Shown one piece after another: positions 4,166-63,726 of a stretch of 64,000 nucleotides of DNA (positions are counted from its first letter, which is position 1; every line of letters starts with the position of its first letter). Below the pieces are notes generated by a model. That model was not told where the DNA came from and made no database searches. It saw only the letters and a list, made by a program, of their open reading frames with translations. The translations under genes were made by a program, and so were the position numbers. Source of the DNA: an uncultured Methanobrevibacter sp. (GTDB taxonomy: Archaea; Methanobacteriota; Methanobacteria; Methanobacteriales; Methanobacteriaceae). Location: the NCBI RefSeq assembly GCF_946184425.1, contig NZ_CAMHFP010000002.1, positions 35,354-99,353 on the forward strand. Reading direction: 5' to 3'.

Positions 4166-4268
4166 TTGGTTATATTTATCATTTGGCAATTATTTTTCCG
4201 TCAAAAAACTTTTTTATAATAAAATTCATACATTTATAATAGTTTATTATTTTGGAGGAATTATTCAA

Positions 4269-5015: not shown

Positions 5016-5459
5016 TTAAAAATCACCGTTCCGGTCCATATTGAAGTTTTGGGAATGGGGATTTATTACAAATCCCTGGAAATGTTCATCTTCTTCAGCT
5101 ATTTTTGTGATGTCTTCAGGAGTCATTACCTTCATTTCTAATTTATCCAAAAAGAGTTTTGCTATTTTTGCACTTCCAACTGCATATTCCCTGATATCTG
5201 TAAAAATTGGAATAATATATTGTTTTGATGCCTCGGTAAGTGTCAGTTTCACAGGCCGGTCAACTTCATCAACCAAAGTGAAGTAAATCTCTTCAGGATA
5301 AGTTTGCTTGATGTTTTCTTTTACTGCATCAAGTTCAACGGCCTGTTCAGTTTTAAGTTTTTTGGCCATATCAGCATATATTTGGATATATTCCTTAAGC
5401 TGACTTTTTGATGCCTTTACATTATTTTTCTGATAGTCTTCGTAATCTTTAGGGTTCAT
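5016..5459 (-). CDS. SseB-like domain protein
   Basis: YIIPIFTDIREYAVG...FQGFVINPHSQNF. Confidence 0.65.
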   Translation of the reverse strand: MNPKDYEDYQKNNVKASKSQLKEYIQIYADMAKKLKTEQAVELDAVKENIKQTYPEEIYFTLVDEVDRPVKLTLTEASKQYIIPIFTDIREYAVGSAKIAKLFLDKLEMKVMTPEDITKIAEEDEHFQGFVINPHSQNFNMDRNGDF

Positions 5460-5461
5460 AT

Positions 5462-5950
5462 TTACTCACAGCAGTCGTGAACATCTTCTCCGCCGATAAC
5501 GAAATCCCATTGTGGTGCATTGATTGCAAGGCCAATGAAACCTTCATCATCTGCATAATCTGCCACTATTTCGCTTCCGACTTTGGTGTCGCATTCAAAT
5601 TCATTGTCTTCAAACTGTTCTTTGAAAACAGTGATTGCCTCTTCAGCTTCTTTTTCATCAGTGTAAACGGGTATTACGAATTCTTCATCTTCGTCGTCTT
5701 CTTCACTTATGATTAAAGCAACCACTTCTTTTTCTTCGCTTTTTGCATTTGAAACGATGATAAATTCTTCATTAAAAACTTTGTGTTCTATTTCATGGTA
5801 TATTTCACCAAGTTCTTCAATCTGTTCCTTGTTGTCTTCTTCAAAGCTTTCGGGAAGATCTTCTGAATTTTCTAATTCCTTTTCTATTTTTGCATTTAAA
5901 TCATCATCAAGTTCAATAAATTTTTCTACTAATTGTTTAAGTTCGCTCAT
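5462..5950 (-). CDS. SseB-like domain protein, acidic
   Basis: FVIPVYTDEKEAEEAI...FIGLAINAPQWDFVIGG. Confidence 0.65.
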   Translation of the reverse strand: MSELKQLVEKFIELDDDLNAKIEKELENSEDLPESFEEDNKEQIEELGEIYHEIEHKVFNEEFIIVSNAKSEEKEVVALIISEEDDEDEEFVIPVYTDEKEAEEAITVFKEQFEDNEFECDTKVGSEIVADYADDEGFIGLAINAPQWDFVIGGEDVHDCCE

Positions 5951-5998
5951 AATTTCACCTAATTAATAAATAATCGTTAAAAAAAAGTTTTTAAAAAC

Positions 5999-6108
5999 AA
6001 ATGAACATTCTCTTCCTAAACACCACTAAAGGAATACAAACGAATGCTCATTTCAACCATCACCATTGTTCATATTATAAAAAAATAGTATATAACAATA
6101 TGAACAAT
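5999..6108. promoter_or_regulatory. Two consecutive long inverted repeats upstream of 5462..5950(-)
   Basis: AAATGAACATTC(5999-6010)/GAATGCTCATTT(6042-6053), 11/12; ATTGTTCATATT(6065-6076)/AATATGAACAAT(6097-6108), 12/12. Confidence 0.6.
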
Positions 6109-6156
6109 ATTATTTATAATTTCAACCTATATAAAGTTTTAGTATCCGAATAGTAA

Positions 6157-7101
6157 TTAAAAGTCTTTTTCAATACTTTTGATTAGATTATAGATAATTC
6201 TATTTGTGCTTACATCAACATTATTTTTCTCGCCAAGCTCAATGACCTTACCATTCAATGAGTCAATTTCAGTTTTAATTTTTCTTTTGATATCCTGATG
6301 GGTTGAAGAGTAATGTTCATAAGTATCCGGAACCAGTTTGGAATAAAAAATATCCTTATATTCGTTTGAAGTGTTCCAAAGGGTGGAATAGCCTGATGCC
6401 TTGATTACTTCAAAGATTTCATCAATTATTTTATCCATTATTTCCATCGAATATTCGCTTTCAGTCAGTTTTCCGTAATTCACATTCAAGATGGCACCTA
6501 ATGGATTTAATGCACAGTTATAAATCATCTTTGCCCACAAATATCTGTCAACTTCGTTTGTAAGTTCACATTTTATTCCAGATGAGGTTATCATTGAAGC
6601 AATTTCTCTTAAACAACTTGGATTTTCGTGCTGTAGTGATCCAAGAAGGACAGGTTCTGTATATACTGTTATTTCACTGATGTATCTTTCATGTCTTTTA
6701 AATCCGGTAATCACGCGTGCTGAAAATACCTGATTTTTTGGAAAATATCTGAGGTATAATGCATCGTTTCCAAATCCGTTTTGGAATATGATGATTTTGG
6801 CGTCATTCTTCAGGATGTTTCTGTGACTGTTTAGGTTATCTGCAATTTCTTCATTTGCGGTTGTTTTTGAAGCAATGAAAATATAATCAAATGTGTTTTC
6901 AGGAATGTCTGAGTATGATTCATAAACTGGCACATCCTTAATTTCATAATGTTCAAATAGTCCACATCTCTTAATTCCGTTCTTTCTTATTGCCTTTGCT
7001 GTTTCTCCTCTTGCATATACAGATACTTCCGCTCCCTGTGATGCAACTGATGTGAGTATTCCGATTCCTACACTTCCGGCGCCGATTAATAATATCTTCA
7101 T
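6157..7101 (-). CDS. Ketopantoate reductase family (PanE/ApbA) protein
   Basis: MKILLIGAGSVGIGI Rossmann, KTTANEEIADNL, KMIYNCALNPLGAI. Confidence 0.85.
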   Translation of the reverse strand: MKILLIGAGSVGIGILTSVASQGAEVSVYARGETAKAIRKNGIKRCGLFEHYEIKDVPVYESYSDIPENTFDYIFIASKTTANEEIADNLNSHRNILKNDAKIIIFQNGFGNDALYLRYFPKNQVFSARVITGFKRHERYISEITVYTEPVLLGSLQHENPSCLREIASMITSSGIKCELTNEVDRYLWAKMIYNCALNPLGAILNVNYGKLTESEYSMEIMDKIIDEIFEVIKASGYSTLWNTSNEYKDIFYSKLVPDTYEHYSSTHQDIKRKIKTEIDSLNGKVIELGEKNNVDVSTNRIIYNLIKSIEKDF

Positions 7102-7288
7102 AATATTAAATTTGTTTTTATAATAAATAAAAATAATTTTAGGCATATCAAAAATTTAATCCTTTTTAAATTCTTTATTTTGGTAAAACTAAATTAATAA
7201 TATTTTTTTAAACCTAAAAAAGATATATTCATAGATTAATTTAAATATAATGATTTTCCTATATATTATTAATACATGGGGCATTATC

Positions 7289-8725
7289 ATGGATTATCTA
7301 ATTCGAGAAAATAACATTCAAAAGGTTTATCTTACCGAAGATACTTTGGATGTAATGGAAATATTGAAAGAAAATTATGGTTATATTGTTGATTCAATGA
7401 AAATGGAGGAATTTTCCGTTAAGAATCCTACATGCAGTCTATTCAAGGAACTTGTTTATGAAACCAAAGTTGTAGGTTTCTGTTCTTATGACTATTCAAG
7501 GGAATTCATGACTTCTGCCCTGAACAATATTTATGTTTTGCCAAAGTTCAGAGGAAACGGATTATTTTTAGATGAATTAACTAAAACAATGAAAGAGCAG
7601 AACAAGCCCAGCATTATCGAACCTACTCGTTTGGTTGTGGAATTACTGGTTAAATATGGTTTTGCAAAAAAAATTACAGATAATATCGTTGCCAGCTCTT
7701 TTGAATTCATTGTGCCTGGTGAACATGTGCTCTCAAATGTGGAGTATGATTCATCTGAAGAGCTATCCACTCATTTTTATGATTTAAACGCATGTGCAAG
7801 CATTCATTTCCTTGATTTGGATAAATCACATTTTGCATACAGCGCTCCATTGAACTATGACATAATCAATTATGATTGTCTCAACAAAAGAAAACAAATT
7901 GATGATGAGTATTTTGATGAAATTAGATGCCTCTTTACAAATCATCATGAAAAACTTATCAATGCGGTGATTGAGCTTGAAGACAAACTTTCAGTCAAGT
8001 CATATACTCTTGAAGAGGTTATAGGTGATGAGAATAATCTTTCACCATATATTGAATCATTGATAGATGACGCACATGTAACATACACTAATGCATTGGA
8101 AATTAAACAGCAGATTAAAGAGGAATATGAGGCTGGAATGATTTTAAATGAGTCATTGTTAATCAGATTGGCTTATCTATTTGACAAACCGACTGAACCT
8201 ACAATCAAATCTCACAGTGACACATGTCCGTACTGCGGCATGCCGATTGATGACCATGACAAATTCTGCCATTTCTGCGGAATCAACCTGAATTACGACC
8301 CCGATGAAATGTTTGACAGTCTACTGGAAACTATCAAATCTTCTAATGATGATTTCAAGGAGGACATAAGATATGTTTCCTACAAATTCCTGAAGCTTAT
8401 AGATGAGGGGATAGATTTTAATTATGCTGTTTTCACAATTGAAAATACCTATGACATTGACTGGCGGGTCTTGAAAAAGTTTCTTGAAGAAAACAATTAC
8501 TTTGATGGTAAACTTACTGAAAACGGTTTTGAATTCATTTTAAATCATCCTCTGAATTATTATGAGGAGTTTAATATGAGCAATGTAAATTACACTGATT
8601 TTGAAAGATATTTCTATGAACATGATGATTTGAGGGGAATAGATATCTGCCTTAATTATCTCAATCAATTCAAAGATGATGAGGACATTCTGGAGATAAT
8701 ATCTGAAATAAAAAATTACATATAA
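7289..8725 (+). CDS. GNAT-like N-terminal domain plus zinc-ribbon protein of unknown function
   Basis: YVLPKFRGNGLFLDEL GNAT-like; CPYCGMPIDDHDKFCHFCG double CxxC. Confidence 0.6.
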   Translation: MDYLIRENNIQKVYLTEDTLDVMEILKENYGYIVDSMKMEEFSVKNPTCSLFKELVYETKVVGFCSYDYSREFMTSALNNIYVLPKFRGNGLFLDELTKTMKEQNKPSIIEPTRLVVELLVKYGFAKKITDNIVASSFEFIVPGEHVLSNVEYDSSEELSTHFYDLNACASIHFLDLDKSHFAYSAPLNYDIINYDCLNKRKQIDDEYFDEIRCLFTNHHEKLINAVIELEDKLSVKSYTLEEVIGDENNLSPYIESLIDDAHVTYTNALEIKQQIKEEYEAGMILNESLLIRLAYLFDKPTEPTIKSHSDTCPYCGMPIDDHDKFCHFCGINLNYDPDEMFDSLLETIKSSNDDFKEDIRYVSYKFLKLIDEGIDFNYAVFTIENTYDIDWRVLKKFLEENNYFDGKLTENGFEFILNHPLNYYEEFNMSNVNYTDFERYFYEHDDLRGIDICLNYLNQFKDDEDILEIISEIKNYI

Positions 8726-8727
8726 AA

Positions 8728-8743
8728 TTTAGGTACACCAAAA
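8728..8743. promoter_or_regulatory. DtxR/IdeR-like imperfect palindrome TTTAGGTACACCAAAA
   Basis: Matches the motif seen at 26607, 26665 and 52848. Confidence 0.4.
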
Positions 8744-8754
8744 AATTTTAATAT

Positions 8755-9248
8755 TTGAAGAATATATTATATTACATGGACGATGATCATTTGCCGGTTT
8801 ATGGTGTTGGACCTTATTTGATTATTCCGATGTTAGCAATAACGCTTTTATTCAGTTTTGCAATTAAAATACCTGTATTTAAAGTTGATTATTTGAATGC
8901 ACCATTTTTAATTATTGGGGTAATATTCCTAGTTTTGGGAGTCATATTCTGGATTTTATCTGTAGTCCGATCCAAAATTACCGAAAACATTTTGGAGAGT
9001 AATCTTATTACAACAGGAATCTATGCATATGTCCGACATCCAATATATTCGGCATTTTTATTCGTTTCAACAGGTCGATTTTTATTTCAAATAATTTATA
9101 CTTGTTTATTCTACCGATAATTTTCTGGGCTTTATTATCATTGGTAATTATAAATACGGAAGAGAAATGGTTAATTGAGAAATTTGGTAATGAATATCGT
9201 GAATATTCACAAAGAGTATCAAGATTTATACCATTCTTAAGGATATGA
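8755..9248 (+). pseudogene. Isoprenylcysteine carboxyl methyltransferase (ICMT/PEMT) family membrane methyltransferase, frameshifted
   Basis: Frame 1: ...GIYAYVRHPIYSAFLFVSTG; a second frame continues NNLYLFILPIIFWALLSLVIINTEEKWLIEKFGNEYREYSQRVSRFIPFLRI* to 9248. Confidence 0.8.
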
Positions 9249-9252
9249 TAAT

Positions 9253-9948
9253 ATGGGATTTTTTGACAATATGAGAAAACCAAAAGGAAAATTAGGAAAC
9301 CTTCAATTAAAATCTATGAATAAAGAGCACACTCCCGTTTCCCTGTGGGGTTTGAAACATTTGGATATTCACTCCAATGATGTAATTCTTGATGTTGGAT
9401 GTGGGGGAGGAATAAATATTAATAGAATGGCTGAAAAAGCGAAAAAGGTCTATGGTGTTGACTACAGCATTGAAAGTGTAAAGCTTTTCCGTGAAGTAAA
9501 TAGGGTAAATATTGACAAAGATAAAGTAGAAATTCTTGAAGGTGATGTCCAGAATCTGCCTTTTGAAGACAATCGATTTGATATTGTAACAGCTTTTGAA
9601 ACAGTATATTTTTGGCCTAATATTGTTGAATCATTTAAGGAAGTTAAAAGGGTTCTCAAACCAGGGGGAATATTTTTAATAGGCATGGAATCCAACGGTT
9701 CGGATAATATTATTATGAAATTGTCCGAAAAATTTATTGATATGGCGGTTTATAACGATAAAGAAATCAAGGAGTTCTTAAAATCTGCAGAATATTGTGA
9801 TATTACTGTATATTTAAGAGATGGAAAGAATAAAAAGGAAATAATTAAAAAAATGGATGGAAGCATCACAAAAATAGATGATGATTACAATAATTTATCA
9901 ATTTCAGATAAATTCGTTGAATGGATGACAATTGTGGCTCAAAAATAA
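9253..9948 (+). CDS. Class I SAM-dependent methyltransferase
   Basis: VILDVGCGGGININRMAEKAKKVYGVDYS; FDIVTAFETVYFWP; LKPGGIFLI. Confidence 0.9.
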   Translation: MGFFDNMRKPKGKLGNLQLKSMNKEHTPVSLWGLKHLDIHSNDVILDVGCGGGININRMAEKAKKVYGVDYSIESVKLFREVNRVNIDKDKVEILEGDVQNLPFEDNRFDIVTAFETVYFWPNIVESFKEVKRVLKPGGIFLIGMESNGSDNIIMKLSEKFIDMAVYNDKEIKEFLKSAEYCDITVYLRDGKNKKEIIKKMDGSITKIDDDYNNLSISDKFVEWMTIVAQK

Positions 9949-10653
9949 TCATCCATCACAAATATCCTTGTATGTGCAGAATTTGCATAGAAATTGTCTG
10001 TGGGCTGGAAAAATGCCCTTATTTATTTTGGCTCTGACTTTATGAAGTGTATCAACAGCTTCATCAATTTCAGTCTGATTCAGATATTTTCGTTTGTTGT
10101 CTTCATTGCATACATCTAATAATCTTAATTTACCGTTTTTTGTAAAAAAGACTCCAACACTTGACACTTCACGATTATAAACGTTTTCAACCAATAGTTT
10201 ATAATAGCATAATTCAAGGCGGTATTTTGAAAATGAACTTGATTTGCTTGTTTTATAATCAATCACGACTAAATCTCCATTTTCATCCTCCAGTATTATG
10301 TCGCATATTCCAGAAAATCTGTTTTTCTCATCAAGTAAATATTCCTCATTTGAGAATAGTTTATAGTTTTCCTCAACAAAAACTTCATCAAAAAATGATC
10401 CTAGATTGTCTATGTGTGAAGTCAGGTCATATCCTATGTCCAAATCATATGCTATCTTCAAAAGTTCATTTGTAGTGTCAACGTCCTCAATGTTGTCCCC
10501 AAACTTTTCTGTAAACTTTTCAGCAATCAAATGGACATAGCTTCCAAGAGCCATATACTTGTTTTGTGGAACTTCAATTTCATCGATATACTGAAATTTG
10601 AATTCCAGTGGACACTTGAGATAGGAATTAACCTTTGATTTTGATAATTTCAT
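9949..10653 (-). CDS. PD-(D/E)XK nuclease family (RecB/Cas4-like) protein
   Basis: SKSKVNSYLKCPLEFKFQY; FSGICDIILED..LVVIDYKTSK; C-terminal CKFCTYKDIC. Confidence 0.85.
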   Translation of the reverse strand: MKLSKSKVNSYLKCPLEFKFQYIDEIEVPQNKYMALGSYVHLIAEKFTEKFGDNIEDVDTTNELLKIAYDLDIGYDLTSHIDNLGSFFDEVFVEENYKLFSNEEYLLDEKNRFSGICDIILEDENGDLVVIDYKTSKSSSFSKYRLELCYYKLLVENVYNREVSSVGVFFTKNGKLRLLDVCNEDNKRKYLNQTEIDEAVDTLHKVRAKINKGIFPAHRQFLCKFCTYKDICDG

Positions 10654-10709
10654 GATATAATCTCTTAAAAAATAGATTTTGAGGATTGTTAAACCCTCGA
10701 ATTAAAATT

Positions 10710-11255
10710 TTACCATCTGCTAATTTTGCCGTCACTTGAAGATGCACTCATTGTATCAATAATGTTTTTACATGTGTTTATGAAGCTTTCACTGTTTTCA
10801 TAAGTAATGTTGTCTCCACTAATTTTGAAATTTTGGCCGTCTTTAGCAAAGTAGATATCTGTATTATAACTGGATTCACTTTCTTGATATAGGAAGTATG
10901 CAGGAACACCGTTTTGGTCAATTTTCTGATTTGAAGTGTAGGAACCCTGACTGATTAAACTGTTGGCTGTATCAGAAACATTTTGTGAACTGTCAAGCTG
11001 TTCGACTAAAATAGTCATGTTACTGTTGCTGTTAACCAGATTAACCGCAGTATTATTTATTTTAGATTCTTTAAAATTAGATATTTTAGCAAAATTACCT
11101 GCACCGACAGTAATTCCATCACCATTGTTGTCATTTGTATTATTAGTGGTATTGTCGTTTGTATTAAGAATATTTAAACCGTTTGCAGCCACATTAATGC
11201 CCACATAAATAACTATTAAAATGATAAGTAAGGCATAAAGTTTTTTCATTTCCAT
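10710..11255 (-). CDS. Membrane-anchored extracytoplasmic protein of unknown function
   Basis: N-terminal TM helix then Asn/Thr-rich linker. Confidence 0.6.
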   Translation of the reverse strand: MEMKKLYALLIILIVIYVGINVAANGLNILNTNDNTTNNTNDNNGDGITVGAGNFAKISNFKESKINNTAVNLVNSNSNMTILVEQLDSSQNVSDTANSLISQGSYTSNQKIDQNGVPAYFLYQESESSYNTDIYFAKDGQNFKISGDNITYENSESFINTCKNIIDTMSASSSDGKISRW

Positions 11256-11400
11256 ATCTTCACCTTTATAATACTTATGAATTTTAACTTATATAAAATT
11301 AATTTAAGGATTTTTAAATAATATTTATATATATATTTTTCAATAAAATATAATTATTAATTTCTTATTTTGAAAATTAATAACAATCGGAGATAAAAAA

Positions 11401-11943
11401 ATGAAAATTGTAGCACTTCAAGCTAGTCCACGTAAAGGTGGAAACTGTGACGTATTGATGGATGAAATGATAAAAGGAATTGAGGAAAACGGTGGAGAAG
11501 TAGTCAAATATTACTTGGAAAAGGAAGAAATTGCACCATGTAAAGCATGCATGTACTGTGCTGAAAACCCTGAATGTGTGCGTGCAGATGACGGTAACAA
11601 AATATTGGATGAATTAGTTGCTGCTGATGGTGTAATATTTGCAACTCCAATCTATTATGGACAAATGACTGCTCAAGGAAAATTGATTATTGACCGTTTC
11701 TACAGTATTGGCCAAAACCCAGATAAAAGCCTATCCGGTAAGGCAGCATTAATCTTTACTGAAAACCAACCTGAAGGAACCTATAAAGAATATATTGAAC
11801 TTACCAAATTCTCACCATTCACATTCATGGGCTATGATGTAATAGGTCATGTGGATGCGGGTAGTGCGGGTCCTGCAGGAATCGTTGCTGAAGAGCAAGA
11901 AGACAAATTGAAAGAAGCTTACGAATTAGGTTTAAAATTCTAA
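11401..11943 (+). CDS. Flavodoxin-fold NADPH-dependent FMN reductase / iron-sulfur flavoprotein family
   Basis: ALQASPRKGGNCDVLMDEM; CKACMYCAENPEC. Confidence 0.9.
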   Translation: MKIVALQASPRKGGNCDVLMDEMIKGIEENGGEVVKYYLEKEEIAPCKACMYCAENPECVRADDGNKILDELVAADGVIFATPIYYGQMTAQGKLIIDRFYSIGQNPDKSLSGKAALIFTENQPEGTYKEYIELTKFSPFTFMGYDVIGHVDAGSAGPAGIVAEEQEDKLKEAYELGLKF

Positions 11944-12021
11944 ACCTACATTATTTTTTTTAACAAATTTTACTGTTGTAAACCGCAACATTTATATATT
12001 TTACATTTTAATTTATATTCA

Positions 12022-13005
12022 GTGATAAATATGGAATGTGAAAAACTAGTTTTAACTAATGACTGGGATAAGGTATTTCCAAAATCAGACAAAGTAAATC
12101 ATGAAAAAGTAACTTTCATAAATCGTTATGGAATAACATTAGCAGCAGATTTATACAAACCCTTGGATTTTGATGGTAAATTGCCTGCAATTGCAATATG
12201 TGGTCCGTTTGGCGCAGTTAAAGAACAGTCTTCCGGTTTGTATGCTCAAAAATTAGCTGAAATGGGATTTTTAACAATAGCTTTTGACCCTTCATTTACA
12301 GGCGAAAGTGGCGGACAGCCACGTTTCATGGCATCACCGGATATTAACACTGAAGATTTTCAGGCTGCTGTTGACTTTCTGGTAACAAATGATGAAGTTG
12401 ATGCAGATAGAATTGGAATCCTTGGAATATGTGGATGGGGAGGCATGGCTTTAAATGCCGCCAGTTTGGATACTCGTATAAAAGCAACTGTAACTTCTAC
12501 AATGTATAATATGACTCGTATCAATGCAAAAGGATACTTTGATGAAGCAGACAGCCCTGATGCAAGATATGAAATGAAAGTTGCTCTTAACAACCAAAGA
12601 ACTGAAGACTACAAAAATGGAAAATATGCAATGGGTGGAGGAGTAGTCGATCCACTTCCGGATGATGCACCTTTCTTTGTAAAAGACTATTATGATTACT
12701 ACAAAACTGAAAGAGGGTATCATAAACGTTCACTTAACTCCAACGATGGTTGGACAGCTATTGGAACAATGTCATTCATATCCCAGCCAATTATAGCATA
12801 TTCAGATGAAATCCGTTCTGCAGTTCTGATAATACATGGTGACAAGGCTCATTCATGTTATTTCTCAAAGGATGAATTTGAAAAATTGAACGGAGACAAT
12901 AAGGAATTAATGATAATTCCTGATGCAGTTCACACAGACCTGTATGATGATTTGGATATAATTCCATTTGAAAAAATTGCAGATTTCTTCAATGAAAATC
13001 TGTAA
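12022..13005 (+). CDS. Alpha/beta hydrolase
   Basis: GILGICGWGGMAL nucleophile-elbow region; GDKAHSCYFS. Confidence 0.85.
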   Translation: MINMECEKLVLTNDWDKVFPKSDKVNHEKVTFINRYGITLAADLYKPLDFDGKLPAIAICGPFGAVKEQSSGLYAQKLAEMGFLTIAFDPSFTGESGGQPRFMASPDINTEDFQAAVDFLVTNDEVDADRIGILGICGWGGMALNAASLDTRIKATVTSTMYNMTRINAKGYFDEADSPDARYEMKVALNNQRTEDYKNGKYAMGGGVVDPLPDDAPFFVKDYYDYYKTERGYHKRSLNSNDGWTAIGTMSFISQPIIAYSDEIRSAVLIIHGDKAHSCYFSKDEFEKLNGDNKELMIIPDAVHTDLYDDLDIIPFEKIADFFNENL

Positions 13006-13199
13006 TTTGTATCTATTTGAATTTTTTTAAAATATTTTCAACTATTTTTTTTTAATTTTATCTGACTTTTTTTTTTGACATATTGTGAAAATTTCATAGG
13101 ATTAACTTAAGTTTGATACTAAATATTATAAATCAGTAAATGTAAAATATATTTTATTTGACTGTTATTTTAATTTGAATATTTAAAGGAGATAATTTT

Positions 13200-13416
13200 A
13201 TGTCTTTTCGTGTAGAAAAAAATTGTATCTGCTGCGGTGATTGTGCAAGCATGTGATTTGAATTTAATAACAGTTTATGATGACCATATTGAAATGGATA
13301 TTGAAAAGTGCCAGCATTGTTCAAAATGTGTTTCTGCATGCAAGAATAATGCATTTACAAAAACCGTCATATTAAAGCATTTTTTATACTTGTTCAAACG
13401 TAAAAGTGGATTATGA
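13200..13416 (+). pseudogene. 2[4Fe-4S] ferredoxin broken by an apparent 2-bp deletion
   Basis: Frame 1 MSFRVEKNCICCGDCAS..*; frame 2 from 13243 VQACDLNLITVYDDHIEMDIEKCQHCSKCVSACKNNAF..*; together two CxxCxxCxxxC motifs. Confidence 0.85.
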
Positions 13417-13611
13417 CTTTCTTAGTTCTCACATCAATAATGAGTGTTATTTTAATATAAATCACTTTTTGTATAATGCATCAAGCTTTAAAATTTCATC
13501 ATGTTTTTTATATAATTTTTTACAAATTAATTATTAATGATATGTGTTGCTTCTCAAATTCGATGAAGTTCTAACACTTCGAACTAGTTATCATATAAGG
13601 GAGTAATTGAC

Positions 13612-13848
13612 ATGGGTTTAGGGTCATTTTTCAAAAGAAACAAAAAACAAAAGGAAGAGATAGAAGAGGAATCACACATTGACATCAACATTGATGAGTG
13701 TGATGGCTGTGAAAAATGCATTATTGCCTGTCCCAACAATGTTTTGGTATTGGTGGATGAGAAGTCCTCTGTAAACAATTCATTTGGATGCAAACGATGT
13801 AAGGTATGCATGGCAATCTGTCCGAATGAATGTATAAATGTAAACTGA
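13612..13848 (+). CDS. 2[4Fe-4S] ferredoxin
   Basis: CDGCEKCIIACPNN and CKRCKVCMAICPNE. Confidence 0.92.
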   Translation: MGLGSFFKRNKKQKEEIEEESHIDINIDECDGCEKCIIACPNNVLVLVDEKSSVNNSFGCKRCKVCMAICPNECINVN

Positions 13849-13908
13849 AAAAAATTTATTATATGAATTTTACAAATATTAATTAAGAGTTACTGGAAAC
13901 GTGTTATT

Positions 13909-14328
13909 ATGAATGATTTATGGGGATTAACAGTGCGCGGAATATGTGAAGTGAACGGTAAAATTCTGCTTTTAAAGGTAAGGTCCAAATCTAGCCATGA
14001 TGCAAACAGATGGGAAATTCCCGGAGGCAAAGTAAAGAAATGTGAATTTTTTGACGATGCTCTCAGAAGGGAATTTTTGGAGGAAACCGGACTTACTATA
14101 ACTATAGAATCCCTTTATAATGTTATTCAAAATAATTATACAGCCTGTAAAACCAAAGAAGAGGTCAAATCAATACAGTTAATAATGAAAGTAACATCAG
14201 ATAGTGATGAGGTTACAATAAGTGAAGAGCATGATGGCTTTAAATGGTTTACCCGCGATGAAGTTGATCAGTTGATTGAAAAAGATTTGCTTACAAGAGC
14301 TGCAATGAATTCATTTAAAAGGAATTAG
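13909..14328 (+). CDS. NUDIX hydrolase
   Basis: GGKVKKCEFFDDALRREFLEETGL Nudix box. Confidence 0.92.
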   Translation: MNDLWGLTVRGICEVNGKILLLKVRSKSSHDANRWEIPGGKVKKCEFFDDALRREFLEETGLTITIESLYNVIQNNYTACKTKEEVKSIQLIMKVTSDSDEVTISEEHDGFKWFTRDEVDQLIEKDLLTRAAMNSFKRN

Positions 14329-14337
14329 TCAGGTAAT

Positions 14338-15414
14338 ATGCATAACACCAAAAGAATTTTTTATTATGATGTGCTTAGGGCATTTGCAATAATTGGAATA
14401 GTGTTCTGTCATGTTTCTACTATATTCGTTTTGACAAGTATCAATACTCCAAATTTATATATCTCCACTTTTTATAACTGTTTTAGAGATATTTCAATAC
14501 CTGTCTTTGTAATGCTTAGTGGAATTTTGCTTTTAAACAGAAAGGATTCATTCAAAAATTTTTTTCAAAAGAGACTGTCACGTATTTTAATTCCGTTTAT
14601 TTTTTGGGCAATAGTTTATGCAATATATGATTTTATTTATGTGGGTCATGTATTTGACTGGAACGTGTTATTTAACATTTTCATTGCAAAACCCGGAACG
14701 TTAGGAGTTACATTTTGGTATATCTGGATGATTATTGTGATTTATATTGCAATATTTATCATTAATCAGATAATTGCATATGGCAATAAAAGAATGGACG
14801 GTTTCGCTAGCAAATTCATTAATATTCTTACTGCATTTGCTATTTTATTCATTATTTTAGATTATTTTGATGTATTTCATCTGTTTTACCGATCAATGTT
14901 GTTTTATTATTTTTCATTTTTGTCATATGTCATAATAGGATATTTTATGGCAAACAATGATTTCATTGGAAAAAGGATTTCTGCAAAAAAGATGGTTTTA
15001 ATCACTTCCATGATTGTCTTTTTTGGTTATATCTTCTATATAGTGGGTTATGTTGTCCCAACAACCAATATCAACAGTCATTTCACATATTTTGGATATT
15101 TTAATCCATTGATTGTTATTATTTCAGTCAATGCATTTTTATTTGCCAAATATCTGTCAAAAACTGATTTTTTAAAAAATATTGAAGATACTCAAATTGG
15201 TAATGTGCTTAGTTTGGTGAGCAGATATAGTTTTGGAATTTATTTGGCTCATTTCATTATATTAAAAAGAGTAATTGCCCGTTTGTTTTTCATTTCTCAA
15301 AACTTGGCTATAGCTATTCCGGTTTATGTAATTATTACAATAGTTTTGTGCATTGTAATCTTATGGATTTTAGGCAAAATTCCATATGTTAATAAGGTGT
15401 CTGGAATAAATTAA
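14338..15414 (+). CDS. Acyltransferase 3 family integral membrane protein
   Basis: FYYDVLRAFAIIGIVFCHV; multi-TM; paralogue of 54896..55984. Confidence 0.88.
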   Translation: MHNTKRIFYYDVLRAFAIIGIVFCHVSTIFVLTSINTPNLYISTFYNCFRDISIPVFVMLSGILLLNRKDSFKNFFQKRLSRILIPFIFWAIVYAIYDFIYVGHVFDWNVLFNIFIAKPGTLGVTFWYIWMIIVIYIAIFIINQIIAYGNKRMDGFASKFINILTAFAILFIILDYFDVFHLFYRSMLFYYFSFLSYVIIGYFMANNDFIGKRISAKKMVLITSMIVFFGYIFYIVGYVVPTTNINSHFTYFGYFNPLIVIISVNAFLFAKYLSKTDFLKNIEDTQIGNVLSLVSRYSFGIYLAHFIILKRVIARLFFISQNLAIAIPVYVIITIVLCIVILWILGKIPYVNKVSGIN

Positions 15415-15439
15415 AAAAAATAATGGATTATAGGTTTAA

Positions 15440-15736
15440 TTATTCAGCACCTATAATTTGGATATCACTTTCTTTAACGAAATCCTTAGTTTCTAAACGA
15501 AAAGTTTTGAAGTGGCTTGATACCATATGTTCTCTCAAATAATCGAAATTTTCCCATTTTTCAATAAATGTTATTGAGTTATCAGTTGTGGATTTTAGTA
15601 ATTGATATTCGAGGTTACCATCTTCCTCAAGTGATTTTTCTATTAACTCTTGTGAAATTTCTAATACACTTTCTTGACAGCCATCTTTTGGATATAATCT
15701 GGCTAGAACTACAATGAACTCCATAAATACTCTCAC
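15440..15736 (-). CDS. Antibiotic biosynthesis monooxygenase (ABM) domain protein
   Basis: KDGCQESVLEIS..SITFIEKWENFDYLREHMVSSHFKTF. Confidence 0.85.
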   Translation of the reverse strand: MRVFMEFIVVLARLYPKDGCQESVLEISQELIEKSLEEDGNLEYQLLKSTTDNSITFIEKWENFDYLREHMVSSHFKTFRLETKDFVKESDIQIIGAE

Positions 15737-15845
15737 GATGTCGATAAAAATAGTTTTATTTTAATGATATATAAATTATTTTGAAAAGATTTTTTCATGA
15801 AACTATTTTTATACTTGAATGAAATAATATTATTATAGGTGAATT

Positions 15846-17705
15846 ATGAATAGTAATTTAAAATTTACATTTTTTTTAATCATTATTTTATTTGCAGTTG
15901 GCACGGTTCATGCTGCTGATTTTAATTCAACAGAAACAGAACAGTTAGGCTATGTCATTAATGATACTCATATTGAAACTGGCGGTTTGGGTGCAATTGA
16001 AAATTCAAGCGATTCACATTCGGTAGAAAAATCACATCCCATTATTTCAATTGATTCAAATAATATTAAAAGCAAAGATGTACTCAATATTAATTTGGTG
16101 GACAGTACAGGTAACGTTTTGAAATTTAAAAATATAACTGCAAAAATAAACAATAAGAATTTCAAGTTGGTGACTAATTCAAAAGGAGTTGCCAAGTTAA
16201 ATGTTAATCTTCCCGCTGGAAAATATAAACTGACAATTCAAACTAGGGAAGATGATAATTTCAAAGCCACTTCAAAAACATTTAATTTAAAACTATCAAA
16301 AATATCAACATCGATAATATACCAATCAAATTTTGTTTTAAATAATAACTATTTTTATTCATTTTTAAAGGATGAGAATGGCAATGGAATCTCATCAAAA
16401 AAGATTACATTAATTTTAAACGGAAAAACATATGTAAAAAAGACGAATGTCAATGGAAGAATTGCTATCAAAATCAAATCTTCCTCTAAAAAGCTTTCCA
16501 TTTATTATAAATTCGATGGAGATGATTATTATTTCAGAACATCGAAAAAAGTAAATTTTTATGTTAATGAACATACATCACTCAACATAGGAAATTCCAA
16601 ATTGATAACCGGAGGATATTTAAGAATATATCTCAAAGGTGAGGGTTATTCCAGTTATTGGAAAAAGACAATCACAGTTACAGTAGGAAATTTAAAATTT
16701 TCCAAAAAAACAAATGCAGAAGGTATTGTAATTATCAGGCCAAATATGGATGTGGGCAAATATAAGGTTTCAGCCAGATATGGAAAATACTATACATTTA
16801 AAATTATGTACTGCTATAAAGCAATCGCCAAGGATCCGTTGAAAGAAGTTGTTCCATTAAAAAATGGCGCTCCAGATATTGACGTCATGACTGGAAACTA
16901 TGTTGGGGGAGATGGAAGCAGAACTTATATACTCACTAAATCACAGTATATGGAAGTTTTAAAAAGGGATAGTCAATGTTTATTTTTAAAGAATAAATTA
17001 ACAAAATATGTATTCTTTAAAACAAAACATTATCCAAATACCTACCACATTCTCAATAGGGAAAAATGGAATGTAATTGAAAAAGCCATAAATGAAAAGC
17101 TTGTTGATGCAAATACTTATGGTTATTGGCCGGGCATAATAAAAGTGTCTTTAAAGGGAAGGTCATATTCATATCCTGAAGTCAGAGACTGGCAGGATAC
17201 AGCATATACTTGCGGACCGACTTCATGCAGTATGTGCAGTCAGGTTTTAAAAAATTATCTGTGTGAGGCGTATATTGCCAAATATGCACATTCTACAAAG
17301 GCTTTTGGAACTTCATGCTCTGACATGAGTAAGGTATTGGAAAAGAAGAATTTCAAATGTGAATACTATTACAGAAATTCATTTGCATATGCTTTGAATG
17401 AACTTAAAAAAGGAGGATGTGCGTTGGTATTCCATGCTAGAAATCATTATGTTGCTATATTAGATATCAGCACTAATGGTAAACTGGTATTGGTAAGCAA
17501 TTCCTATGGAACTTATGATAATATTGCATCTAAATGGCTGTCTGTTAGCTATATGAAGACAAGGTATTATAAAAACTATGATGATGGGCTGATAGTTCGT
17601 TTGAATTATAATCTGAATGACAACATCAAAAATCAGATAAGTTGCTATTATTCAAATTTTGTTCCGAACTGGGCTGCCCACAATACTCGCGAAACTGTGA
17701 GCTAA
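15846..17705 (+). CDS. Secreted Ig-like repeat protein with C-terminal C39-like cysteine peptidase domain
   Basis: Signal peptide; Ig-like repeats; C-terminal TCGPTSCSMCSQVL...GGCALVFHARNHYVAILDI...VSNSYG. Confidence 0.8.
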   Translation: MNSNLKFTFFLIIILFAVGTVHAADFNSTETEQLGYVINDTHIETGGLGAIENSSDSHSVEKSHPIISIDSNNIKSKDVLNINLVDSTGNVLKFKNITAKINNKNFKLVTNSKGVAKLNVNLPAGKYKLTIQTREDDNFKATSKTFNLKLSKISTSIIYQSNFVLNNNYFYSFLKDENGNGISSKKITLILNGKTYVKKTNVNGRIAIKIKSSSKKLSIYYKFDGDDYYFRTSKKVNFYVNEHTSLNIGNSKLITGGYLRIYLKGEGYSSYWKKTITVTVGNLKFSKKTNAEGIVIIRPNMDVGKYKVSARYGKYYTFKIMYCYKAIAKDPLKEVVPLKNGAPDIDVMTGNYVGGDGSRTYILTKSQYMEVLKRDSQCLFLKNKLTKYVFFKTKHYPNTYHILNREKWNVIEKAINEKLVDANTYGYWPGIIKVSLKGRSYSYPEVRDWQDTAYTCGPTSCSMCSQVLKNYLCEAYIAKYAHSTKAFGTSCSDMSKVLEKKNFKCEYYYRNSFAYALNELKKGGCALVFHARNHYVAILDISTNGKLVLVSNSYGTYDNIASKWLSVSYMKTRYYKNYDDGLIVRLNYNLNDNIKNQISCYYSNFVPNWAAHNTRETVS

Positions 17706-52924: not shown

Positions 52925-53707
52925 ATGATATTAGAAGGTGTAGAAAAAACAATGCTTTTGACATTATTTGCCAAAGCACAACATTCACAAAAAAAGAACC
53001 ACAAATTTTACGATCAAAAAGCAATAGAGATAATATCCAAGATAGATTATGATTTCACAGTTGCAAATCAGGATAGATTTATGAAATATGGTGTGATTTC
53101 AAGAACAATTGTTCTTGATGAAATGGTTTCAGATTACATTAAAAAACATCCTCACTCTACTATAGTCAACATTGCTTCAGGAATGGATACAAGATTCAAC
53201 AGACTGGACAACTGTTTAATCAAATGGTATAATATCGATTTGGAAAACTCAGTTAATTTCAGAAGACAATATCTTGAAGACACAGACAGGGTCAAAACAC
53301 TTGCATACTCAGCAATGGATTCCAATTGGGCTAGTGAAATTAAAATAGAAAGTGGCAATGTTCTTTTTATCATTGAAGGTCTTAGCATGTATCTTACAGA
53401 AAATGACAATTCAGAAATTCTAAAAATAATAAATGACAATTTCAGACACTGCAGCATATTTGTTGAGATAATGCCTCCAGTTTCAGTAGAAAATGTAAAG
53501 GAAAAATCTGTAGAGCAGACCAGTTCAGAATTTATATGGGGTGTTGAAAAAGGTTCACAACTTCTTAATTTAAATTCCGGATTTAAGTGGATTCGAGATG
53601 TAAATCTTTTTGATGGAATGAACAAGTTCAAGCCGGCATTCAGATTGTTTACATGGCTTCCATTTTTGCGAAAAAAGATGGATTATATTGCAGTTTTGGA
53701 AAAATAG
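52925..53707 (+). CDS. Class I SAM methyltransferase, leucine carboxyl methyltransferase (LCM) family
   Basis: IVNIASGMDTRFNRLDNCLIKWYNIDLENSVNFRRQYL; VLFIIEGLSMYL. Confidence 0.85.
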   Translation: MILEGVEKTMLLTLFAKAQHSQKKNHKFYDQKAIEIISKIDYDFTVANQDRFMKYGVISRTIVLDEMVSDYIKKHPHSTIVNIASGMDTRFNRLDNCLIKWYNIDLENSVNFRRQYLEDTDRVKTLAYSAMDSNWASEIKIESGNVLFIIEGLSMYLTENDNSEILKIINDNFRHCSIFVEIMPPVSVENVKEKSVEQTSSEFIWGVEKGSQLLNLNSGFKWIRDVNLFDGMNKFKPAFRLFTWLPFLRKKMDYIAVLEK

Positions 53708-57316: not shown

Positions 57317-57532
57317 TATATGGCTCAGATTATTTTACCAGTTCAATTGTAATTTATTATTTGCTTGGTGTCCATAAAATCTTTATTTTTATTTAATATT
57401 TAATGTATATCAAATAAAACGAATATTTGATAAATTAAATTTAAATTAAGAAAAGAAAATCTTTTTTAACTATTATTAATTAATATAATGATTAAGTTAA
57501 TCAAGGTATGTTTAATTTAATTGGGAGATATT

Positions 57533-60484
57533 ATGAATAAGTTTTTCAAAAAAACAGTAATTGCAGTTTCCATTTTATTAATTTTATTTTTGATGATGGG
57601 TTTTGCTTTCTCCAGTGGAAATAATTCCAGTAATTCATCATTTGAAAAATTTTATGAAAATTCAAATTCACAATCACATGACATTAACATTTCAGGTAAT
57701 GTAAGTCTTAATGATAATGGCACTTCAGATGATTTTAAAGAAAATGAAGAAACCCCTCAAAATTCAAGTGGAAACAATAACAGTAGCAATTTAACTAACA
57801 ATAGTTCGATTTCAGATAATACTCCTGAAGAAATGTATGAATCTACAAAGGTTAACTATAAACCATTAACAACAGATTACACTGAAGGTTACGTGTTTTT
57901 TCCTGTTTATGCTTATGATATTGTAAGTTATGATGGAATCAGATACATCAATCCAAAATATAATTCAATCGTTAAATTAATTGTATTCACAGGAAGCACT
58001 TTCAAGAATTATTCGGGCAAAATTGGAGATAATGGGATAGCTCAGGTTAAGTTGTATGGCTTAAGTATAGGAAATCATATAATTAAAATTCATGTTGATG
58101 GAAAATATTACGGTTCATCATCTATAAAGGTTTTAAAATCTACCGCTCGGGTATATGCACCTCTTACACAGGTAAATTATAATAGAACCAATTATTTTTT
58201 TATCAGGGTTATTGATACACATAATTTCAATGTCAAGGCGACTATACTGAAAATCAAGGTTTATTCCGGCAGTAAATATAAAATATACACAGTTAGAACA
58301 AATGCTGCTGGCCTTGCAAGAATGCACACTAAAGGTTTATCATTGGGTGTTCATAATGTCATTATCTATTCCGTTAACAGTAAGTTTAACATTAATAAGG
58401 CTTCAAAAATTATCGTCAGGAAAAGTGCAAATAACACAGTTAAGCAGGTGGTGGGATATACCCAAAACGGAATAGTGAAATATAAAGACAAAACTTATTT
58501 CAAGATAACTGTCAAAAATACATTAGTTTTCCCAGTTAAACAGTTGCTTTTGAATGTAAAGGTGAATTCAGGTAAATATTATAATATATATAAAGTTAGA
58601 ACTAATTCAAATGGAGTTGCTAGCCTGAATACTGGTGGATTATCATTAGGTAATCATAATGTACTGATTACGTCAGCCAACACAAATTATTTGTTAAAAA
58701 AGATTTCACTGATTTCGGTGCAAAAGAATGTTGTGAATAATAAAATAGAAAAAACAAGGTTAAAATCTTTAATTTTTAATCATCCTGGCAATGATTATTT
58801 TGCAAAACTGACATGGACTTCAAAGAAAAATGCCGATTATCAAATTCTAAGAAAGTCTGAAGGTAATTTTAAAATAATTGCGACAGTAACCGCCAATAGT
58901 GAAGAAATGTCTTTTATAGATAAGGTTTGTGAAAATGATTCCTATACATATTCTGTCAGGGAAATAATAACCAAGGGCAATACAAAAATATTGGGGCCTT
59001 ATGATTCAGAGGGATTGAAACTATTGAAATATCCTACAGTAAGTGTTGAATTTTACAATAATAAGGCGGTAATCCATTGGAGTAAAGTTTCAGGTGCAAC
59101 AAAATACTTAATATATAATAAAATCGGAAAAGAAGGCAAGTTTAAATTAATCGGCACAGCAGATGGAAGTAAACTGAATTTTGCTCACTATTACTATAAA
59201 TCCGCAGGTGATGAGATTAAAAGGAATTTCACTGAATATTACTATAAATCTGCACCAGACATATCTGATAAACTGATAAAAGGTGTTTTCATTGATCCAA
59301 GTTCAAATGATTTGGTCTACACAGTCAGAGCCTGCACAATAGGAAAAGTTGACGGTGTAGAAAAAACAAGTTTCGGTACATATCTAATCGACGGTGATTT
59401 TCACCTTGAATGCCCAACTATAATTTCCCTTTCTGAGGGCATTATAACCTGGGACACAGTTCCAAATGCCGACGGTTATCTTATATTGAAAAATAATAAT
59501 TCAGATAATGTGTGGAATGTAATAAAACAGGTAACTAAAAATACTGAGGTTCATCAGTCTGCGGAAATTGGTGAAATTGAGAAGGATTCCTATTATGCCG
59601 TGCAGGCATATTCCAATAAAAATGGTGAAATTATTTATGGGGGATATGATGAAGGTTTCACCCTTAAGCATTTTTCTCAAAATTATTCTAATAACAGTAT
59701 ATTGTATATTGGAGATAGTCTTACTTTCGGAGCATATTATTCTTCAAGTAAAAATGACTTCTTCTCCATACCTTATAGAGTGGCGCAGTTAATTGGTGGA
59801 GTGTATTATAATCCTTCAATTATGGGGTCTACTTATCATAGTCTTGAAAAAAATATTAATAATGTTAGAGATGTCCTTATTAATGCTGTAATAAATCCAA
59901 TATATTCAGGAAAACCTCCTTTTTCTGGCCGAAATATGGTTTATACAAATAATAGTATTGGTCAGGCAAACACACGTATTGCAGATTATGATGTAGTTGT
60001 AATGGCTGCCGGAACTAACGATTACATTACGGATGCCAAATTAGGCTCTTTGAATAGTAATGATACAAAAACATTCAATGGTGCAATCAACTATATTTTG
60101 AATAAAATAGAAAAATCAAGTGAATATCGTGTTAATCATGGAAAAACACCAATTAAGGTGGTTTTTGTTGATTTATATTATAGTGATACTGTTTATGACC
60201 TGAAAAAGATAACAAACAGGGATGTAACTCCTAACAATATTGGATTGACATTGACAAATTATCAGAATGCTTTAAATAATCAGATTAAAAAATGGAATAC
60301 CAGCGAATTTTTGACATTTTATCAATTTAAGACAAGAAGCTATAATATAGTTACCCAGCATAATTGCGCATATACCACATCCGATAATTTACATTTAACC
60401 AGAGCTTCCTACAGCAAATACGGCAATGCATTTGCGGAGTTCCTTGTAAATAATGTTTACACTAATTCAACGGTTAATTTTTAG
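57533..60484 (+). CDS. Secreted Ig-like/FN3-like surface protein with C-terminal SGNH/GDSL hydrolase domain
   Basis: Signal peptide; three Ig-like repeats; ILYIGDSLTFGAYY (GDSL), VVVMAAGTNDY, SDNLHLTRASY (DxxH). Confidence 0.88.
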   Translation: MNKFFKKTVIAVSILLILFLMMGFAFSSGNNSSNSSFEKFYENSNSQSHDINISGNVSLNDNGTSDDFKENEETPQNSSGNNNSSNLTNNSSISDNTPEEMYESTKVNYKPLTTDYTEGYVFFPVYAYDIVSYDGIRYINPKYNSIVKLIVFTGSTFKNYSGKIGDNGIAQVKLYGLSIGNHIIKIHVDGKYYGSSSIKVLKSTARVYAPLTQVNYNRTNYFFIRVIDTHNFNVKATILKIKVYSGSKYKIYTVRTNAAGLARMHTKGLSLGVHNVIIYSVNSKFNINKASKIIVRKSANNTVKQVVGYTQNGIVKYKDKTYFKITVKNTLVFPVKQLLLNVKVNSGKYYNIYKVRTNSNGVASLNTGGLSLGNHNVLITSANTNYLLKKISLISVQKNVVNNKIEKTRLKSLIFNHPGNDYFAKLTWTSKKNADYQILRKSEGNFKIIATVTANSEEMSFIDKVCENDSYTYSVREIITKGNTKILGPYDSEGLKLLKYPTVSVEFYNNKAVIHWSKVSGATKYLIYNKIGKEGKFKLIGTADGSKLNFAHYYYKSAGDEIKRNFTEYYYKSAPDISDKLIKGVFIDPSSNDLVYTVRACTIGKVDGVEKTSFGTYLIDGDFHLECPTIISLSEGIITWDTVPNADGYLILKNNNSDNVWNVIKQVTKNTEVHQSAEIGEIEKDSYYAVQAYSNKNGEIIYGGYDEGFTLKHFSQNYSNNSILYIGDSLTFGAYYSSSKNDFFSIPYRVAQLIGGVYYNPSIMGSTYHSLEKNINNVRDVLINAVINPIYSGKPPFSGRNMVYTNNSIGQANTRIADYDVVVMAAGTNDYITDAKLGSLNSNDTKTFNGAINYILNKIEKSSEYRVNHGKTPIKVVFVDLYYSDTVYDLKKITNRDVTPNNIGLTLTNYQNALNNQIKKWNTSEFLTFYQFKTRSYNIVTQHNCAYTTSDNLHLTRASYSKYGNAFAEFLVNNVYTNSTVNF

Positions 60485-61254: not shown

Positions 61255-61785
61255 ATGCACACATGTCCCGACTGTGGCTCAATAATTATGGAAGGAGACC
61301 CCTATTGCACACATTGCGGAGCTCATCTGTCCTGGAGTGACGATTATGGCTCTCAAGGAAGGTCAAATATGGGATACTCCGATTTTGATGACTCCCTTGA
61401 AAAATCATTAGAATTTGAAAAAAGACATCAGGAACTCATTAATAAAATATGTGAAAAATATAAAGTGGAACTGGAAGATTTGGACATTAAAGATGGATAT
61501 ACAGAATATATTTTCCTTAGAAAAACACCATACTACACTTTAAAAATCGTTGCAACAGACCAGTACGGTGGAATGATTGGAATTATAAATGATGCAACAA
61601 GAGTTGATTTTACAAAAATACTGGAAAACAGGGATTATCAGGAAATGATTAAGGATTTGGGGCCTCATAAATTAACTACAGATCTTTACAGGGATGAAAT
61701 GCATATCGTCACACAAGATGCCATCTACCAGATAGATATGGAAAATAAGAAGTTAATAGAGGTAAAAAAAGAGAAAGTTACATAA
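61255..61785 (+). CDS. Zinc-ribbon protein of unknown function
   Basis: CPDCGSIIMEGDPYCTHCG. Confidence 0.7.
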   Translation: MHTCPDCGSIIMEGDPYCTHCGAHLSWSDDYGSQGRSNMGYSDFDDSLEKSLEFEKRHQELINKICEKYKVELEDLDIKDGYTEYIFLRKTPYYTLKIVATDQYGGMIGIINDATRVDFTKILENRDYQEMIKDLGPHKLTTDLYRDEMHIVTQDAIYQIDMENKKLIEVKKEKVT

Positions 61786-61808
61786 TATTTTGCGAAACAG
61801 GAGATATT

Positions 61809-63080
61809 ATGAACAATGTGTTTAGTTTTGAAGGAATAGAAATTAATCAGGACTTGTTGGAGAGAACAAATCCCATATTTAACACTGCTCGGATGACTCT
61901 TTTTCAGCTGGCGGTAGCAGGTCATGATGATGCAATGGATATAGTTGAAAAGTTGAATCTTACCAAGGAAGATACACAGAACAGCAAAACTGTCAAGGCC
62001 GATGAGGATGATCTTTTTGTTAACAGCGTCATTATGGATGTGAGATATTTTACCAGTGGAAAGCTCGCTAAGGAATCTGGTTTAACCGTGGTTGACTTGC
62101 CATGCGGTTTCACACCCAGAGCCCTTGAATTTTCAAAAAGCGGCAGGAAATATGTTGGAATGGATCTTCCCGCAACAATCAATGAAGTTGAACCTGCCAT
62201 TATGTCACTGCTGGATGAAAACCAAAAAAAGCTTGTTAGTTTTGAAGGCGTGGATGCAACAAATTATCAGTCCCTTAAGTCTGCATTTGACAAAATTGAT
62301 GGTGAGGTATGCATAACAACAGAGGGGCTCCTGATGTATCTTACAAATTCCGAGATGGATGTCATGTGCGATAACATTAAAAAGATTCTTCAAGAGCATG
62401 GAGGATACTGGATTACTCTTGATCCTGAAATATCTTTTCTCTATGTTTTGATAGTGAAAGCTTTTTATGGTGATCGAACAAGGGAAATTATGTATCGGTC
62501 TAGGTTTAGAATAGAGGATAAATCTGATGTAAAGGCTGTGCGCAATACAATAACTGTTCGTGTCGTAGGTGATGTTCAGGAAAATATGAGAAATGCAATT
62601 AATTATATTGCCTCAAGGGGATTTAAACTGGAAAGGATACCATTTGCAGACCATGTTCCTGAGTTTAAAAGTTTAAAGAATGCAGACCCTAAAATTGCAG
62701 ACCATATCAAGGAAGGCCTTAAGAGAGTGTGTATATGGAAGATTTCCGTAGATGAATCGGATAAGGAGGAAATTTCTGATTCCGGAACTGAGTCTTTTGA
62801 TGCAGATGCGTCAATTGATGGTGACATGCTTAATCTCATCATGTCAGGAAATTTAGATTCATTAAGTGCACCTAATCTTCTTGCCAATTATGAAAAGATT
62901 AAAAAAGATAATGCTTTAAGAAGCGTGATGATTGATTGTTCAAAACTGGAATATGTATCATCTGCAGGTCTGCGCGTTCTTCTTATTATGCATGATGGCT
63001 GCAGGGGTGGAGTTGTAATGAAGTCATGCAATGAAAGGGTCAGAGAAGTTTTATCAGATACTGATATAAAAATTAAATAA
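61809..63080 (+). CDS. LCM-family SAM methyltransferase fused to C-terminal STAS domain
   Basis: VVDLPCGFTPRALEFSKSGRKYVGMDL; EVCITTEGLLMYLTNSEM; STAS core MIDCSKLEYVSSAGLRVLLIMHDGCRG. Confidence 0.88.
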   Translation: MNNVFSFEGIEINQDLLERTNPIFNTARMTLFQLAVAGHDDAMDIVEKLNLTKEDTQNSKTVKADEDDLFVNSVIMDVRYFTSGKLAKESGLTVVDLPCGFTPRALEFSKSGRKYVGMDLPATINEVEPAIMSLLDENQKKLVSFEGVDATNYQSLKSAFDKIDGEVCITTEGLLMYLTNSEMDVMCDNIKKILQEHGGYWITLDPEISFLYVLIVKAFYGDRTREIMYRSRFRIEDKSDVKAVRNTITVRVVGDVQENMRNAINYIASRGFKLERIPFADHVPEFKSLKNADPKIADHIKEGLKRVCIWKISVDESDKEEISDSGTESFDADASIDGDMLNLIMSGNLDSLSAPNLLANYEKIKKDNALRSVMIDCSKLEYVSSAGLRVLLIMHDGCRGGVVMKSCNERVREVLSDTDIKIK

Positions 63081-63096: not shown

Positions 63097-63726
63097 TCAT
63101 TCATAATCTTCACAATAACATCCTTTGCATATATGATGTCCTAAATTGCAGTAATACTCAACATATCCATCAATTTCCATATCTCCAACAATTCCTCCGT
63201 AACTGTCAAAAAATTCCTCGTAGAAATGTATGCAAGTAAAACTGCAGTAGCCTCCACGGGTCGGTGGAGTGTTTTCTATTTGTTTTCTTCTCATTTCTTT
63301 TTCTTTAGCTATTCTGGCTTCTTCTTCAGCTCTTTTCTGATCTATTCTGATTTTATTTTCCTGCATTAACTGATTTATCCTATCTTCAACTTCTCCACTT
63401 TTAATTTTCCCGGAGTCGATTTCTTCGTAAACCTGTTTTTTGATATTTTCCGCCGTATTAAAACCTATACCCATTCTGAGTATTTCCTCAGTGAAACTTG
63501 CCTTGAATAATATTCCTCCCCCCATTACTTTTTTAAGCTGATTTCTGGCTCTTTCTTTTTCGTATTTATCCTGAACTGATTTTAATGAAGTGTCCTGTTT
63601 CATATCCTCTTTATCTATTTTAGTCCCACAATTACCGCAATAATTATAATCTTTTTCTAATTTGGCCCCGCAGTTAGTGCAAAAATTGCCCATATTATCA
63701 TTCCCCAATTCAATCTTATTAAACAC
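63097..63726 (-). CDS. Zinc-ribbon protein with SHOCT-like segment and Cys-rich C-terminus
   Basis: CTNCGAKLEKDYNYCGNCG; GKIKSGEVEDRINQLMQ; CSFTCIHFYEE..CNLGHHICKGCYC. Confidence 0.65.
   Translation of the reverse strand: MFNKIELGNDNMGNFCTNCGAKLEKDYNYCGNCGTKIDKEDMKQDTSLKSVQDKYEKERARNQLKKVMGGGILFKASFTEEILRMGIGFNTAENIKKQVYEEIDSGKIKSGEVEDRINQLMQENKIRIDQKRAEEEARIAKEKEMRRKQIENTPPTRGGYCSFTCIHFYEEFFDSYGGIVGDMEIDGYVEYYCNLGHHICKGCYCEDYE

Follow-up and report, generated by a model that had tools for sequence, protein, structure and literature searches.

A methyltransferase-STAS fusion gene in Methanobrevibacter with a homologue on a Selenomonas plasmid

The stretch of DNA analysed here (the window) comprises 64,000 nucleotides of a Methanobrevibacter MAG (G000; 2.23 Mb, 93% complete). 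Close to its downstream end lies a gene that encodes an LCM-like methyltransferase domain followed, after a short linker, by a STAS domain. The gene and its features are the following:

61809..63080, plus strand: methyltransferase-STAS fusion gene, 423 aa, ATG start
61799..61804, plus strand: Shine-Dalgarno-like aggaga, 4 bases before the ATG, as read from the sequence
61809..62762, plus strand: N-terminal class I SAM methyltransferase domain, LCM-like, residues 1-318 (hhalign and Foldseek; PF04072 below cut-off)
62088..62120, plus strand: equivalent of SAM motif I, VVDLPCGFTPR, residues 94-104 (aligned by hhalign with the LCM motif I VVNLGCGLDTR)
62763..62807, plus strand: acidic, Ser-containing linker, about residues 319-333 (low pLDDT at 317-328)
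62796..63065, plus strand: C-terminal STAS domain, about residues 330-419 (PF01740, a block of higher pLDDT, Foldseek)
62961..62963, plus strand: codon of S385, a predicted phosphorylation site, aligned with S58 of SpoIIAA (alignment with 1th8_B)

A similar aggaga precedes the start in four orthologues (L012, L013, L019 and L099). The G+C content of the fusion gene (37.9%) is the second highest among the 50 ORFs of 150 aa or more in the window, which fits an origin outside the lineage, albeit not strongly. Two different zinc-ribbon proteins flank the gene, one encoded at 61255-61785 on the plus strand and nearly unique to this genome, the other at 63097-63726 on the minus strand. The former ends 23 bp upstream of the fusion and is lineage-specific; it was rejected as an operon partner, as only one of the other 66 Methanobrevibacter genomes has a full-length match to it, and that genome is free of the fusion. 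Further upstream, a 987-aa protein (57521-60484, plus strand) ends in a region that weakly matches GDSL-type lipases and is repetitive in its N-terminal part; its look is that of an adhesin.

PF01740 recognizes the STAS domain at 34.7 bits, where the Pfam cut-off is 22.6 (E 1.6e-8, residues 336-419), and it was also recovered by a six-frame search of the genome. The first-pass annotation had described it as retaining the serine motif of SpoIIAA and RsbV, and this description holds: the quoted DCSKLEYVSSAGLRVLL motif is present, S385 sits in the stretch VSSAGLR, and both S385 and D350 are invariant across 13 aligned fusions, archaeal ones and one bacterial. The NCBIfam models TIGR00377 (anti-sigma factor antagonist; 33.3 bits, cut-off 53.45) and TIGR02886 (SpoIIAA; 21.7 bits, cut-off 114.75) score the domain below threshold. 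The STAS part of the AF2 model forms a block with pLDDT of about 69-93, and in Foldseek its best matches are SpoIIAA bound to SpoIIAB and RsbV with RsbW, with a probability of 1.00 to SpoIIAA/RsbV. SpoIIAA, TM1442 and further STAS proteins are the solved structures matched by the fusion, and the neighbours of the domain in sequence and fold include the Mla STAS subunits of P. aeruginosa and E. coli.

The kinship of the N-terminal part is more remote. PF04072, the LCM family, gives 14.2 bits (E 0.04) against a Pfam cut-off of 22.3, and it matches 7 of 8 orthologues at E values of up to 1. When a profile of the methyltransferase part was compared by hhalign with an LCM profile, built from LCM proteins of Methanobrevibacter and other archaea, the probability was 94% with an E value of 1.3e-7 (for this single comparison), and the alignment pairs MDLP with DLDLP and TEGLLMYL with AEGLFMYL of the LCM enzymes. 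The AF2 models of this part, full-length and domain-only alike, are poor because the alignment is shallow. With the low-confidence full-length model, PPM1 is the first match in Foldseek that is not a STAS protein, and with the likewise low-confidence domain alone Rv0731c comes first (E 4.8e-4) and human LCMT1 second (E 2.7e-3). Motif I of the fusion has a proline where LCM enzymes have a glycine (LPCG and LGCG, respectively), and L97-G100 and T102-P103 within it are invariant, the Selenomonas homologue included. These profile and model comparisons suggest that the earlier label 'LCM-like' is probably right as a remote relationship, although the support is weak; it does not extend to membership of PF04072. 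A separate LCM-family gene, which exceeds the PF04072 cut-off, lies in the same window (52925-53707, plus strand, 260 aa) and has similar genes in many genomes of the genus.

The fusion is not confined to one assembly, so that neither of the two outcomes named in the first-pass annotation as refuting it, a failed STAS profile or a fusion found here alone, was observed. A single-sequence scan of genome contigs returned 10 relatives, all titled Methanobrevibacter and 73-81% identical, and in a phylum survey of 152 genomes, 67 of which are Methanobrevibacter, the fusion was found in 17 of the 67 genomes of the genus. In 13 of these the full-length frame is intact, in 2 it is cut by contig ends and in 2 it is interrupted; one genome with an intact frame (G110) carries two copies. 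Eroded copies occur in three sister genera, with internal stops in the two-contig genome G054, in pieces in G039 and as fragments in G053 and G072. Identity between the window protein and those intact fusions that were compared is 76-81%, and dN/dS has a pairwise median of 0.13 in the methyltransferase part, 0.18 in the STAS domain and 0.25 in the linker, the least constrained part; these values indicate that the fusion is under purifying selection in Methanobrevibacter. The acidic, serine-containing linker itself is present as the first-pass annotation had proposed. In the searched Methanobacteriota genomes the methyltransferase part was never found without a STAS domain, save for pieces of interrupted or truncated copies. 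No relative of the fusion was found in two further archaeal phyla (115 and 29 genomes), a result that is weak as the search had no positive control. Phage records and viral contigs likewise hold no relative, and an origin from a phage or virus was rejected on this ground; an assembly artefact or chance joining was rejected in view of the 13 intact frames in the genus and the bacterial homologue.

This homologue is encoded on plasmid pSRC2 of the rumen bacterium Selenomonas ruminantium TAM6421. It is the sole full-length relative in the plasmid collection (34% identical across 94% of the query, E 7e-73), is annotated only as 'STAS domain-containing protein', and aligns with the window protein in both halves, with LPCG motif, SSAG loop and DPE triplet all in register. 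A second, broken copy is present on pSRC1. In a tree of STAS domains, which included 30 stand-alone STAS ORFs sampled from Methanobrevibacter and its family (one of them, L036, without a clear motif), the archaeal fusions join the Selenomonas fusion apart from all the stand-alone ORFs with a support of 0.988. This tree rejects the idea that a RsbV of Methanobrevibacter was joined to a methyltransferase locally, and the grouping indicates that the fusion was formed once, predates the transfer and moved as one unit. Hence, while the architecture is indeed present in an archaeon, as had been proposed, it is not an archaeal invention, and since the same architecture stands on a Selenomonas plasmid, the fusion apparently travels between rumen bacteria and archaea. 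On pSRC2 (L068), positions 3605-16209 hold a run of genes on one strand, with a GCS2-type ligase, a MATE protein whose ATPase-like tail is degenerate, hydrolases and the fusion, which may be a small biosynthetic cluster. The C-terminal tail of this MATE protein (L068:4849-6579) can be aligned with the MATE-HATPase of Methanobrevibacter; the tail is not recognized by Pfam and has lost the N box, so that as a partner kinase the protein is only a lead.

The first-pass annotation had also remarked that no kinase partner is visible nearby. Within the final 6 kb of the window no kinase or phosphatase gene stands beside the fusion, and across the genomes compared none consistently adjoins it; the neighbours differ from genome to genome. 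There is a frameshifted RsbU about 1.2 kb from the fusion in G126 (L093), RsbU genes about 6 kb downstream of it in G109, and the end of an NRPS with a MATE-HATPase about 9.5 kb away in G111. The fusion gene behaves as a solitary mobile unit. The partner proteins are not missing, however, and the genome search that had been suggested for RsbW-like ATPases and phosphatases located both. Contig C5 encodes an RsbW-type kinase that exceeds its profile cut-off and has intact N, G1 and G2 boxes, and its gene overlaps that of an RsbU/SpoIIE phosphatase, both supported by Pfam; an Sfp-like protein follows (read from the sequence), consistent with the arrangement in M. ruminantium M1. Contig C12 encodes two further SpoIIE phosphatases beside a stand-alone STAS protein, which brings the SpoIIE/RsbU total to three. 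On contig C49 a second stand-alone STAS gene is divergent from an NRPS gene, so that the genome has two stand-alone RsbV-like proteins. The C49 NRPS (6586-14403), which has a terminal reductase-like domain, is followed directly by a MATE protein with an RsbW-like HATPase_c_2 tail (L005, 14412-16142), in which the G1 box is kept and the G2 box is lost. Frames of about 580 aa with a HATPase match occur commonly across the genus, and these may be MATE-HATPases of the same kind. In G126, a dense partner-switch cluster (L094, contig C18, 1893-11904) contains two RsbU genes, a MATE-HATPase-like protein, a stand-alone STAS protein and a 711-aa protein that ends in an RsbW domain. A set of this kind, with RsbU/V/W genes near NRPS genes, was described for M. 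ruminantium M1 in the genome paper of 2010 (PMC2812497).

SpoIIE and HATPase_c_2 matches were found in 17 of 17 carriers of the fusion, compared with 35 and 36, respectively, of the 50 non-carriers (Fisher p 0.0065 and 0.0096, ignoring phylogeny and genome completeness). This co-occurrence supports a partner switch in a suggestive manner only, because relatedness and completeness are uncorrected. Phosphorylation by RsbW would be the most likely fate of the STAS domain, judging by its conserved serine, by its fold similarity to SpoIIAA and RsbV in their kinase-bound form, and by the occurrence of kinase and phosphatase in all carriers.

On this basis, the protein may be a mobile, single-gene LCM-like methyltransferase that is placed under an RsbU/RsbW partner switch by its built-in RsbV/SpoIIAA-type STAS domain, a reading to which we give slightly less than an even chance (roughly 45%). 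A membrane RsbU/SpoIIE phosphatase would sense a signal and dephosphorylate S385, and the unphosphorylated STAS domain would then dock on an RsbW-type ATPase, either the stand-alone RsbW or possibly the RsbW-like tail of the MATE protein. Docking or release would alter the activity or the location of the attached methyltransferase, so that an enzyme and not a sigma factor would be the output, and phosphorylation of S385 by RsbW would reset the switch. To our knowledge, archaea lack sigma factors, and the methyltransferase is a natural candidate for the output because the host is an archaeon without them; that the switch controls the attached enzyme is plausible by analogy. The N-terminal domain itself would carry out the methylation, and at a guess its substrate could be an acidic metabolite of small size, or a peptide made by the NRPS systems of the genome. 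The unlinked kinase, the unconserved neighbourhood, the scores below the TIGR00377 and TIGR02886 cut-offs and the LPCG in place of LGCG in motif I all speak against this reading. The broader proposal that sigma-free partner switching gates an archaeal enzyme, on one gene carried between bacteria and methanogens and possibly serving the modification or export of an NRPS product, is more tentative and somewhat unlikely.

The main rival reverses the roles of the two domains: the methyltransferase-like domain would be a sensor and the STAS domain the output, as in RsbR-type proteins, which have the same order of a ligand-binding N-terminal domain and a C-terminal STAS domain. On binding of SAM, SAH or a metabolite, the STAS domain would compete differently against stand-alone RsbV for access to RsbW, and the real output would lie with a different RsbW client, for instance the MATE-NRPS system. 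The genome, with one canonical RsbW for several STAS proteins, leaves room for such competition, and motif I is atypical; yet constraint is stronger on the methyltransferase part than on the STAS domain (dN/dS 0.13 and 0.18), and the motif I, DLP and EGL-MY regions of LCM enzymes are kept across the divide between archaea and bacteria, which makes this arrangement unlikely.

Alternatively, the STAS domain could be an unphosphorylated structural, protein-docking or nucleotide-binding module of the MlaB/SLC26 kind, attached to an ordinary tailoring methyltransferase. The TIGR00377 score, the Mla subunits among the neighbours and the unlinked kinase genes agree with such a module, but the serine and D350 would hardly be invariant in it, the top structural matches belong to the kinase-bound RsbV/SpoIIAA class and RsbW and RsbU occur in every carrier genome, so that we consider it distinctly unlikely. 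That the gene is mobile cargo, acquired from rumen bacteria, of little use and without a defined role in Methanobrevibacter, and now on its way out again, would account for its patchy spread, the eroded copies in sister genera, the high G+C content and the unconserved neighbours, but is improbable given the 13 genomes with an intact frame, the 76-81% identity and the dN/dS of 0.13-0.18.

Each half of the fusion is of a known kind, and partner-switch genes are already known in the genus; no paper that joins an LCM-type methyltransferase to a STAS domain was found in the open-access literature. Rumen methanogens hold RsbU/V/W genes despite having no sigma factors, and the STAS-enzyme fusion read as a partner switch names a candidate output for them and makes the question of their target testable with two purified proteins. 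Furthermore, it shows a signalling-enzyme protein that is common to rumen bacteria and methane-producing archaea.

Among the known systems, RsbR-type proteins consist of an N-terminal folded, globin-like domain and a C-terminal STAS domain. The fusion shares this order, but its N-terminal domain is methyltransferase-like and not globin-like. With LCM/COG3315-type O-methyltransferases (PPM1, LCMT1, Rv0731c) it appears to share a remote profile and fold similarity together with motif I and the DLP and EGL-MY regions, while it differs in its score below the family cut-off, in LPCG for LGCG, in a length of about 320 aa and in the STAS domain that is always attached in intact copies. RsbV and SpoIIAA, which consist of a STAS domain only (PMC8256260), have in common with it the STAS fold, the SSxG loop with a candidate serine and the kinase and phosphatase families in the genome; unlike them, the window protein is fused to a methyltransferase, is unlinked to a kinase gene and remains below the TIGR00377 and TIGR02886 cut-offs, and no sigma factor is expected in its archaeal host. 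The M. ruminantium M1 set likewise comprises serine phosphatases, an anti-sigma antagonist, a kinase, MatE and a PPTase near NRPS genes, and the NRPS-associated genes, as described in the relevant passages of that paper, do not include a methyltransferase-STAS fusion (PMC2812497). For several STAS proteins the target is something other than a sigma factor, or is unknown (PMC8256260), and in HsbA/HsbD, BgrV/BgrR and SiaC/SiaD the phosphorylation state of a STAS-type protein controls a diguanylate cyclase (PMC8457831). These systems would resemble the fusion in placing an enzyme under the control of STAS phosphorylation; their STAS protein is a separate partner of the cyclase, whereas in the fusion the STAS domain is covalently joined to the enzyme.
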